A stretch of DNA of 64,000 nt from Filomicrobium insigne. Its GTDB lineage: Bacteria > Pseudomonadota > Alphaproteobacteria > Rhizobiales > Hyphomicrobiaceae. The notes beneath the pieces were generated by a model. That model was not told the DNA's origin. It searched no databases and was given only the letters and a program-made list of their open reading frames with translations. The translations under genes and the position numbers were made by a program. Location: the NCBI RefSeq assembly GCF_900104305.1, contig NZ_FNJC01000002.1, positions 372,001 through 436,000 on the forward strand, given 5' to 3'. Shown in pieces: positions 38,213 through 40,095 of this stretch (positions within the stretch are counted from its first letter, which is position 1; the number at the start of each line of letters is the position of its first letter).

Positions 38213-38348
38213 TCGGAACCGAAACAGCTCTAACTTTCCAAGTCTCGCGCGGCTTACGCAGCTATCTGACATTCTGCCTTGTGAAAGGCGTATTCGAGAC
38301 CTATACGCGCGCTCCCCGGTCAACAAAACCGGCGTGAGCACAACGGTT

Positions 38349-38364
38349 GGAGTTCCTGAACTCC
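38349..38364 (+). terminator. Palindrome downstream of the SDR gene
   Basis: GGAGTTC-CT-GAACTCC is a perfect 7-bp inverted repeat in the 200 nt between the SDR gene and the tRNA-like genes. Without a T-run it is a weak terminator candidate. I see nothing else in this stretch. Confidence 0.35.
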
Positions 38365-38421
38365 GCCCGCGCAGGCGGCCTTGCCAGCCCTGTGTACGGA
38401 GCCACGACGGGGAGATCGGTT

Positions 38422-38495
38422 GGGGTTTTAGCTCAGCGGTAGAGCACCGGACATTTGTCCGGAGGTCGTGGGTTCGACTCCCGCAAACTTCACCA
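38422..38495 (+). tRNA. tRNA-like gene with abnormal anticodon arm, encoded CCA
   Basis: The cloverleaf parts are clear: acceptor GGGGTTT/AAACTTC (7 bp with two G-U), TA, D-stem GCTC/GAGC, T-arm GTGGG-TTCGACT-CCCGC, discriminator A and encoded CCA at 38493-38495. The anticodon arm is 16 nt (38447-38462): CCGGA, a 6-nt loop CATTTG, and TCCGG. In fact CCGGACA-TT-TGTCCGG is a perfect inverted repeat, so no normal 7-nt loop with U33 can form and no anticodon can be assigned. It may be a decoding-incompetent tRNA, or a tRNA that lost one base. It overlaps the next tRNA-like gene by 2 nt. Confidence 0.75.
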
Positions 38496-38567
38496 CTGGA
38501 TAGCTCAGATGGGTAGAGCATCAGACTGATAATCTGACCGTCGAAGGTTCGAATCCTTCTCCACTGC
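38494..38567 (+). tRNA. tRNA-Ile(GAT)-like gene with acceptor mismatch
   Basis: D-stem GCTC/GAGC, anticodon arm TCAGA-CTGATAA-TCTGA with anticodon GAT at 38528-38530, variable CCGTC and T-arm GAAGG-TTCGAAT-CCTTC are all normal. The acceptor CACTGGA/TCCACTG has a C-C mismatch at pair 3-70, the discriminator is C, and TGG rather than CCA follows. tRNA-Ile(GAT) is normally encoded in rRNA operons; a second copy here is unexpected. Its 5' end shares the CA of the upstream gene's CCA tail, so the two cannot both be excised intact from one precursor. Confidence 0.7.
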
Positions 38568-38943
38568 TGGCCTCAAAAACCAGCTCCACCCTTCCAAGGT
38601 GTTGTCCAAACGGGGCCGGGGACCGGAATGCGGAAGGACTGAAAACAACGCTCGTACCTTCGGGCACGAACGAAGCGGAAGGTCCCATGCCGTTTATGCG
38701 CCGCCTGATTTCAGGTGACGGCTAAGACGCGTTTGCGCCAGCACGCGGGCTTTGGTCCGTAGGTCCGTGCAACCGCCGCGATGCCCGCTCCCTGCGATCC
38801 GCTGCGCGTAGATGCCAGCGGTCCCCGGCTTCATGACCGGCATCGAAAATACCTGTCCCGCGCCATGCGGGACAAAGGCTCAAACAACGAAAGGACGATC
38901 GACGCATGCCATAGCCATGCCATGCCCGACAGGAGTAACGAAC
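38568..38943 (+). promoter_or_regulatory. Structured leader upstream of the slipin gene
   Basis: Stems that stand out are GGGACC with GGTCCC (about 38617 and 38682) enclosing a UUCG-tetraloop hairpin GCTCGT...CCTTCGGG...ACGA, CGATGCC with GGCATCG (about 38779 and 38838), and a perfect TGTCCCGC-GCCAT-GCGGGACA (38854-38874) 70 nt before the start codon. The slipin frame is open through its 3' part but has no binding site there. A cis-regulatory RNA is possible; no known riboswitch class is recognisable. Confidence 0.4.
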
Positions 38944-40095
38944 ATGCTGATGAAGATTCTCGACGAACTTATGGGCCGCATGCGCTTTCGGGTGCAGGAA
39001 AACCAACGTGCCATCGTCTTCCAGAACGGCAAGCTGTTGAGCATTGCCGGACCGGGCGAGCATGTCCTACCGAACTGGCGCAAGAGCCTGGAGGTCGTAC
39101 CTTACGACATCATCACTGGTGCGGTGTTCAAATCTCCGTACGAGAAGCCCTTGTTCGACAAGCTCCCGGACGTGGCAGCTAAGCACCTGAGCGTCTTTCG
39201 CACGGGCTGTACCGAAGTTGCTGTCATCGAACGCGACGGTCGTCCCTTCGACGTTCTTCCGCCAGATAGCAAATTGACCGTATGGGCCGACGCCGGTCCG
39301 TGGAGCGCGACGCACATCGACATCTCCACGGACTTGCGCATCGATCCCGACCTCCTGCGGCGACTAGTGCTTGCCGGCAAGATGAACATCATCACCGGCG
39401 CCACGGTGGCCGAAGGTCATGCCGGATTGCTCTTCATCGACGGCGTCTACGTCGAGACGTTGGAACCTGGCGTCTACGGCTTCTGGAAGGCAGGACGGAC
39501 AGCAACGGTGAAGCAAATCGACCTGAAGCGGCAGTCGGTCGACGTCACCGGCCAAGAGGTACTGACGAAGGATCGCGTGACGATCCGCATCAACCTCGCG
39601 GCGGAATACCGTGTGACCGATCCGGTTCTCGCTGTCTCAGCGGTAAAGGACTTTTCGGACAGCCTCTACCGCGCCTTGCAGTTCGCCTTCCGCAAGACCC
39701 TTGGCGCACTGAGCCTCGACCAAATCCTTGAGAAGAAGGTAACCATCGACGAGGAGGCCGCCGGCAAGGTGAAGGCAGACATGGCTGCAATCGGCGTTGA
39801 GGTCTTGGATATCGCGCTGAAGGACGTCGTATTGCCGGGCGAAATGCGCGAGATCCTGAACCAGGTCGTCGCGGCTGAAAAGCAGGCCGAAGCCAACGTG
39901 ATCCGTCGGCGTGAAGAAACGAACGCAACCCGCTCGCTTCTGAACACCGCAAAGGTCATGGCCGAAAACCCGGTCATGCTGCGCTTGAAGGAGCTGGAGG
40001 CTCTGGAGGCAATTGCCGACAGGGTCGAACGCCTGACGATCCACAACGGCACCGGCGGTTTGATGAACGACATCGTCAAGCTGCGAGACGAATAA
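38944..40095 (+). CDS. Slipin family SPFH/Band 7 protein
   Basis: 383 residues from the ATG at 38944 (AGGAG 8 nt upstream). An N-terminal segment (LMKILDELMGRMRFRVQENQ) precedes a duplicated SPFH-like region: one part at about 15-150 and the Band 7 core at about 190-330 (RQSVDVTGQEVLTKDRVTI ... IGVEVLDIALKDVVLPGEMR), followed by EKQAEANVIRRREETNATRS, the helical oligomerisation segment. Such proteins form membrane-associated ring complexes. Unlike most slipins it lacks an obvious N-terminal membrane hairpin, and no NfeD partner is adjacent. Confidence 0.9.
   Translation: MLMKILDELMGRMRFRVQENQRAIVFQNGKLLSIAGPGEHVLPNWRKSLEVVPYDIITGAVFKSPYEKPLFDKLPDVAAKHLSVFRTGCTEVAVIERDGRPFDVLPPDSKLTVWADAGPWSATHIDISTDLRIDPDLLRRLVLAGKMNIITGATVAEGHAGLLFIDGVYVETLEPGVYGFWKAGRTATVKQIDLKRQSVDVTGQEVLTKDRVTIRINLAAEYRVTDPVLAVSAVKDFSDSLYRALQFAFRKTLGALSLDQILEKKVTIDEEAAGKVKADMAAIGVEVLDIALKDVVLPGEMREILNQVVAAEKQAEANVIRRREETNATRSLLNTAKVMAENPVMLRLKELEALEAIADRVERLTIHNGTGGLMNDIVKLRDE

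Follow-up and report, generated by a model that had tools for sequence, protein, structure and literature searches.

The window, i.e., the whole 64,000-nt stretch of Filomicrobium insigne DNA analyzed here, contains two tRNA-like genes on the forward strand, called by ARAGORN at 38422–38495 (TLS1) and 38494–38567 (TLS2). The Rfam tRNA model (RF00005) scored them at 57.5 and 60.5 bits, respectively, against a gathering score of 29, and no Rfam family other than tRNA reached its gathering score in the window. The original prediction of two overlapping, aberrant tRNA-like genes was thereby confirmed. In TLS1, the acceptor stem is paired and an ACCA is encoded at the 3′ end, the last two bases of which (CA) are also the first two of TLS2. 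The TLS1 anticodon arm, CCGGACATTTGTCCGG, folds into a stem of 5 bp capped by a 6-nt loop in place of the 7-nt loop with an assignable anticodon of a decoding tRNA, and ARAGORN reported the gene as tRNA-??? with a two-base ‘anticodon’, tt. TLS2, reported as Ile gat, has a 7-nt loop (GAT), so that an assignable anticodon is found in TLS2 alone; its acceptor stem is poor, with a C3–C70 mismatch, a C discriminator and TGG where CCA is expected. The genome gave 46 tRNA matches, TLS1 and TLS2 included, and no second copy of the pair, matches elsewhere in it being limited to 52–57 nt within TLS2. The exact 23-base anticodon-arm pattern had no match in the genome collection.

A gene for a slipin-like SPFH/Band_7 protein of 383 aa (38944–40095, forward strand), identified with Pfam and by its homologues, starts 376 nt downstream of the pair. 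The Band_7 family (PF01145) was matched at 6.6e-33 and 114.7 bits vs. a cut-off of 23.6, and the SPFH part of the protein matches solved structures of stomatins and HflK, which are ring-forming proteins. No transmembrane segment was predicted in it (Kyte-Doolittle maximum over 19 residues, 1.48), and over 20 slipin sequences the hydropathy maximum was 1.61. We know of no firm role assignment for a bacterial slipin. A defence-system label was rejected, as PADLOC returned no call for three slipins, and the window’s slipin had no match to phage at 1e-8. By sequence it belongs with the slipins of the Mesorhizobium type, with identities of up to 71%. Horizontal transfer of the window’s slipin is possible, since four genus mates carry slipins of a second clade (39–42% identity) with a different leader.

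Comparative analyses showed that tRNA-like genes upstream of slipin are not peculiar to this genome. In nine genomes of the genus, including the window’s own, DNA searches found no near-identical pair elsewhere and two weak matches, both of them aberrant tRNA-like genes located before an SPFH gene. A close slipin homologue was present in 21 of 59 relatives (own genome included), the other 20 proteins being 38–61% identical, and 19 of these 21 loci have tRNA-like genes on the same strand just upstream of slipin; in the two exceptions (L078 and L082) the gene starts about 500 nt or less from a contig end. Scanning of the genome collection with a slipin alignment confirmed at least 286 relatives, of which we used the best 80, with 51–71% identity, from Mesorhizobium, Rhizobium, Shinella, Roseibium, Labrys, Sphingopyxis, Ruegeria and others. 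A tRNA-like element was found upstream of slipin in all 80, in 77 by ARAGORN, which called two elements in 40 loci and one in 37 within 1,000 nt, and in three (L125, L158, and L169) by a cloverleaf parser alone. Applied to 100 loci, i.e., these 80 and L062–L081, the parser recovered the full pair in 62, a single element in 34 and none in four; on the 100 reverse complements it recovered no element at all.

A census of T-arm stem-loops within 1 kb on the slipin strand gave the same picture. At least one T-arm was detected in 125/125 slipin loci of Pseudomonadota and tandem T-arms 60–90 nt apart in 103/125, vs. 17/125 and 0/125, respectively, for the reverse-complement control. This set omits L174, a duplicate of the window’s locus, L078 and L187, which lie at contig ends, L180, and L082–L091, and its loci are not all independent, as L184/L104, L183/L113, and L191/L170 look like the same genomes. 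No tRNA-like element was seen at L180, a partial, remote slipin match, and none of the remote SPFH loci L084–L091 has a tandem pair before the gene, L085 showing one tRNA-like call upstream on the same strand. With a slipin profile at E ≤ 1e-40, the class sample (385 genomes) gave seven positive genomes and the phylum sample (398 genomes) gave 23, of which 14 lie outside the class; at the 14 corresponding loci ARAGORN called tRNA-like elements in 10, and tandem T-arms were present in 13. Among individual loci, L199 has three tandem tRNA-like elements before slipin (1078–1292) rather than two, and in L083 (genome G033) slipin is split over two frames and still has a tRNA-Gly-like element upstream. 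As the association with slipin is confined to the sense strand and TLS1 loops other than 7 nt are common, we regard the pair as the product of neither chance nor error, and ‘aberrant tRNA’ genes before slipin should not be treated as annotation noise. Two candidate explanations were rejected. A sequencing error or lone oddity is at odds with TLS1 loops that differ from 7 nt in 44 of the 62 loci with both elements. For a phage or plasmid tRNA array, the listed blastn matches were labeled as tRNA where annotated and none covered 80% of the query; one plasmid record matching at 95–99% lay outside the matches listed.

Alignments of loci of the window’s type, 13 at first and 21 later, placed the pair within a conserved slipin leader of about 650 nt, a context that the original prediction had missed. 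Conservation extends from a promoter-like CTTG-N17-CTAT up to the slipin start. In the window this element reads CTTGTG–17 nt–CTATAC (38278–38306, forward strand), and CTTG and CTAT/CTAA occupy a common position in the leader alignment and in most Rhizobiales loci inspected; a strict sigma-70 scan returned no site at 38278–38306. An inverted repeat, TGTTGC-N-GCAACA, recurs about 30–50 nt upstream of the promoter-like site in L112, L115, L119 and others, and is perhaps an operator. In alignment A2, a 5′ block of small conserved helices with pair changes (helices 1–3; 38315–38421) precedes TLS1 (helices 4–7) and TLS2 (helices 8–10), and these are followed by a 3′ structured domain (helices 11–16; 38611–38833), all on the forward strand. 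A 14-bp helix with both-side changes in 6 of its 14 pairs closes this domain. The RNAalifold consensus of the 21-locus alignment comprises 102 pairs, of which 60 show changes on both sides; 94.1% of cells pair, and none of 500 shuffles reached the observed values. Covariation was 0.389, compared with 0.067–0.100 when the partners were slid by 1–3 columns, a control that somewhat favors a fold derived from the same alignment, although the gap is large nonetheless. TLS1 helices 4, 6, and 7 changed on both sides, and the acceptor pairing of TLS2 was absent from the consensus.

The long internal arm of the 3′ domain (38698–38817, forward strand) was captured in a model, R1, built from 18 loci including the window, which matched it with 96.7 bits. 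We ran R1 on 74 sources: besides the window, these were 57 loci out of the 80 from the collection and 16 of the second slipin clade. Matches at E ≤ 1 were obtained for 45 sources, the window and 44 collection loci, always directly upstream of slipin, and 39 of these reached E ≤ 0.01; the matched sources that had served as training rows were the window, L092, and L107. R1 matched none of the 16 second-clade loci and missed 13 of the 57 collection loci, mostly Rhodobacterales and Aestuariivirga. The 3′ region therefore differs in the second clade and has diverged beyond the model in part of the first. A search of the 385 class genomes with R1 found two, which says little, as at most nine candidates were scored per genome.

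The leader ends in a putative mini-ORF. In the window, a Shine-Dalgarno-like AAGGA (38891–38895) is followed by ATG-CCA-TAG (38906–38914), both read from the forward strand (38891–38914). A Shine-Dalgarno-like motif, a start codon, 0–4 codons and a stop lie directly before slipin in 80 of 82 leader-type loci, the search pattern having permitted at most five codons. A Markov-shuffle control gave a mean of 5.9 and a maximum of 12 in 200 trials, with kinship ignored and more than a quarter of the 82 loci belonging to Mesorhizobium. None of 18 loci of the second slipin clade has such a mini-ORF. Among the edge cases, that of L137, included in the 80, looks spurious, L166 shows ATG-CAA-TAA by eye and was left uncounted, and L141 has none. 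The frame typically reads ATG-ACN/AGY-TGA or TAG in Rhizobiales, GTG-CCN-TAG in Roseibium, TTG-CGA-CGA-CGA-stop in many Rhodobacterales, and ATG-TGA in L123. Because CGA runs and short minigenes are known to stall or to shed peptidyl-tRNA, the mini-ORF could act as a translation sensor.

To characterize what varies within the pair, we compared the 62 loci with both elements parsed. The TLS1 anticodon loop ranges from 4 to 8 nt and is 7 nt long in 18 loci, and among the 60 TLS2 with 7-nt loops 17 different anticodons occur, i.e., no anticodon identity is conserved. An NCCA end was found in 47 TLS1 and in two TLS2. Acceptor stems pair over 6–7 bp in 56 TLS1 and over merely 4–5 bp in 49 TLS2, in a set in which elements with worse acceptors are under-counted, the parser itself scoring acceptor pairing. 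From these sequences, selection does not appear to act on decoding. Results thus support the original prediction in that neither element looks able to decode and that a special role is likely: the relatives’ loci carry loops of 4–8 nt and unrelated anticodons, and the reading that a base was lost by error falls. Two of its further proposals were not supported. Acceptor stems, discriminators and anticodons share no common identity across loci, which speaks against an aminoacyl-donor role, and the overlap does not imply one product per precursor, as an RNase P cut before TLS2 with subsequent CCA addition could in principle release both.

Within Mesorhizobium, the fastest change was seen in the anticodon loops. 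Across 22 loci of the Mesorhizobium type, the D-, anticodon- and T-stems of TLS2 do not vary at any position, yet entropy is 1.88 bits at position 34 and 1.76 bits at position 35. As a yardstick, which may itself be slowed by codon bias, fourfold-degenerate slipin sites had a mean entropy of 0.52, with 1 of 148 at 1.76 or above. A tree of 26 Mesorhizobium-type loci assigns 10 changes to each of TLS2 positions 34 and 35 and four to position 36. Among the 603 leader columns, just three attain this count of 10, namely TLS2 34, TLS2 35 and one TLS1 loop column, all of them in anticodon loops; five further columns, including ones in the TLS1 D-loop and T-loop, have nine changes. The 125 fourfold sites of slipin scored on the tree average 2.47 changes, and two reach 10 or more. 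The chance that the top three columns fall within the 13 loop columns is about 8e-6 if all columns are taken as equal, a figure that makes the case look too strong, since exposed, unpaired columns are not equal to the rest; change at 34–35 could also reflect relaxed constraint at an exposed loop. Pairing of the TLS2 anticodon with another site of the leader was considered and rejected, no convincing covarying column having been found. Other loops are capped: in the Burkholderia loci L248 and L249 a GAAA tetraloop closes the TLS2 anticodon arm (AAA in L207), and GNRA-like loops occur in two TLS1 (L064 and L066). TLS1 of L207, L248, and L249 seems to be devoid of a normal D-arm, and for L250 no T-arm was seen in the stretch examined.

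Gene order outside Alphaproteobacteria links slipin to tRNA damage. In all 14 slipin loci from outside the class, RtcB is encoded within the 7-kb flank, in 12 of them downstream on the same strand, starting 1.1–2.0 kb after the start of the slipin match, and in two (L208 and L221) upstream. RtcR lies upstream on the opposite strand in eight of the 14 and a nucleotidyltransferase downstream in five. The order is rtcR, TLS1–TLS2, slipin, rtcB in Photobacterium sp. GJ3 and rtcR, mimic, slipin, rtcB, nucleotidyltransferase in Burkholderia multivorans; Citrobacter freundii has annotated rtcR, slipin and nucleotidyltransferase genes, and a clostridial record shows slipin, rtcB and nucleotidyltransferase. 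Slipin–nucleotidyltransferase DNA was detected in 1,624 of 5,426 E. coli genomes. The slipin leaders of E. coli and Citrobacter (L203, 4463–4991; L204, 4544–4990) contain a T-arm mimic without a full cloverleaf; both also have a sigma-54-like TGGCACG site. Sigma-54-like sites, scored at 5 of the 14 loci from outside the class and at 3 of the 4 named loci tried, were set aside, since the reverse-strand control gave 3 of 14.

Within Alphaproteobacteria this link is looser. RtcB was not seen beside slipin in any of the 80 collection loci or the 20 loci of relatives in the flanks examined, some of which were short, and the window’s genome has no RtcB, neither adjacent to slipin nor elsewhere. Of 20 alphaproteobacterial genomes that carry the leader, six encode RtcB somewhere and 14 do not. 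Among the 59 relatives it occurs in 14 of 21 with a close slipin vs. 14 of 38 without, a weak association (Fisher p 0.034, with no correction for kinship). The RtcR-like matches of two alphaproteobacterial loci, L222 and L245, are weak (about 1e-35) and probably represent generic sigma-54 activators. PF05731, the TROVE family of Rsr/Ro60 proteins, had no match in the window’s genome or in any of the 14 from outside the class; over 35 genomes it gave one marginal match (G808). Any repair role of the window’s own copy would thus be indirect. Clustering of neighboring genes, in which 43 of the 80 alphaproteobacterial loci were used, returned no cluster of more than 11 loci besides slipin and its antisense frame, and the clusters of up to 11 loci reflect a shared gene order of Rhodobacterales. 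In 9 of the 43 clustered loci a gene some 2–5 kb downstream is one that we take to be pth, encoding peptidyl-tRNA hydrolase; L136, for example, has a pth-like gene at +2815 to +3495 relative to slipin. This synteny may be due to chance.

Taken together, we propose, with about an even chance of being right, that the two elements mimic tRNA without decoding and, as part of the 5′ leader of slipin, serve a slipin-centered module for tRNA damage or translation stress, with the anticodon loops as bait or sensor. The promoter-like motif and the conservation suggest that the leader would be transcribed together with slipin. The mimics might then be bound by tRNA-directed proteins, and their exposed, fast-changing anticodon loops would most likely serve to lure or sense enzymes that cleave tRNA. 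Cleavage, binding or processing of the leader, along with ribosome behavior on the mini-ORF, could set slipin output, the trigger presumably being tRNA damage or translation stress. In bacteria with RtcB, the mimics may partner a slipin ring as Y RNA partners Rsr. Fast anticodon loops in an otherwise slow RNA are a testable hint of conflict with tRNA-cleaving enzymes. Weighing against this proposal are the following: the tetraloop caps (2 of 3 Burkholderia TLS2; GNRA-like loops in TLS1 of L064 and L066) suit a nuclease-proof mimic better than bait, the fast positions 34–35 could be under relaxed constraint and position 36 is slow (four changes), and the window’s genome is without RtcB and Rsr. 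A role in cis only, which we consider possible though rather doubtful, would have RNase P/RNase Z processing or folding elements set mRNA stability and the mini-ORF tune slipin translation, with no sensing of cleavage. It agrees with the location of the pair on the slipin strand, the promoter-like motif upstream and the mini-ORF in between, and a free tRNA-sized RNA would not be needed given that TLS2 is without CCA in 60 of 62 loci and has a 4–5-bp acceptor in 49 of 62; yet it leaves unexplained why the anticodon-loop columns are the fastest while the TLS2 stems of the Mesorhizobium type are invariant, and why rtcB and rtcR are linked to slipin elsewhere.

Less probable still is an RNA that acts in trans as partner of the slipin ring, by analogy a counterpart of YrlA with Rsr, in a complex that would steer RtcB, PNPase or ribosomes to damaged tRNA. 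A ring-type SPFH fold stands beside tRNA-mimic RNA in rtcB operons much as Rsr is reported to stand beside YrlA (PMC8394870), and weak matches to the YrlA model, of 24–34 bits, fall at the TLS1/TLS2 junction; however, the YrlA gathering score of 69 bits was not reached in 21 scanned sources, and RtcB is absent from 14 of 20 leader-bearing alphaproteobacterial genomes. Degenerate anticodons, missing CCA ends and the overlaps would also be expected if two genuine tRNA genes had become drifting pseudogenes, retained merely through their position in a transcribed leader. This we consider very improbable: compensatory changes keep the stems over many genera, drift would not preserve invariant D-, anticodon- and T-stems of TLS2 in 22 Mesorhizobium-type loci, and the covariation refutes drift as the main explanation. 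Hardly more credible are special aminoacyl donors or suppressor-like tRNAs, for which the encoded CCA of TLS1 in 47 of 62 loci could be invoked; no identity elements are shared, anticodon and discriminator vary, and 60 of 62 TLS2 have no CCA. Extending the proposal of a leader-borne bait or sensor, we tentatively envisage a widespread alarm based on twin decoys whose loops would diverge through an arms race against toxins or phage enzymes that cleave tRNA, and a cut decoy or a stall on the mini-ORF would switch on slipin and, in other classes, RtcB; YrlA could descend from the middle of such a pair.

Among the papers listed by searches of open-licence literature, we recognized none on tRNA mimics in slipin leaders. 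Several known systems invite comparison. The pair resembles canonical tRNA (RF00005) in its D- and T-arms, in the acceptor of TLS1 and in passing the Rfam gathering score, but TLS1 has no usable anticodon, and TLS2 has a variable one and no CCA. Operators of the thrS type likewise place tRNA mimicry in the 5′ leader of an mRNA, and OLE, a large partner RNA, is comparable as an extended structured RNA associated with a single protein gene; unlike the former, the slipin leader is not followed by a synthetase gene, and it differs from the latter in protein and structure. The slipin loci of other Proteobacteria recall the RtcR-controlled Rtc operon in having rtcB together with slipin and an oppositely oriented rtcR, to which 5 of 14 add a nucleotidyltransferase gene, whereas the alphaproteobacterial loci have neither rtcB nor rtcR in the examined flank. 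According to PMC7790460, tRNA fragments activate an RtcR-controlled operon, and YrlA contains a tRNA-like domain and was suggested to possibly inhibit the nuclease. Another report describes a trcR mutant of Anabaena in which a slipin gene is strongly raised together with rtcB and a tRNA array is derepressed (PMC10272220); the same gene is named in a further transcriptome study (PMC9938897).

The closest likeness is to YrlA/YrlB (RF02553) of rsr-yrlBA-rtcBA operons. To our knowledge, the tRNA-like RNAs of RNA-repair operons have previously been known with Rsr only, in the form of YrlA. Published reports describe YrlA as a circularly permuted tRNA mimic (PMC11472068) and Rsr as adjoining it in rtcB operons (PMC8394870). 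Both systems encode a non-decoding tRNA mimic with a ring-protein gene, and outside Alphaproteobacteria the slipin mimics also lie near rtcB, often with rtcR; tandem T-arms were counted in 13 of the 14 loci there and rtcB lay nearby in 14 of 14, an arrangement not found at the window’s locus. The order of T-arm and then D-arm at the TLS1/TLS2 junction is shared with YrlA as well, though it is a property of any abutting tRNA pair. The YrlA model, where it matched, spanned this junction of TLS1 T-arm and TLS2 D-arm, at 25.6 bits in the window, below its gathering score. As a speculation, YrlA-type Y RNA may have descended from the T-arm and D-arm middle of a tandem pair. In contrast to YrlA, the pair described here consists of two tandem cloverleaves with anticodon arms, and its partner is slipin rather than Rsr. 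By analogy, it may be likened in action to a Y RNA, yet it does not appear to be one, and it would represent a second, more elaborate kind of tRNA-like RNA in a repair context, tied to slipin.
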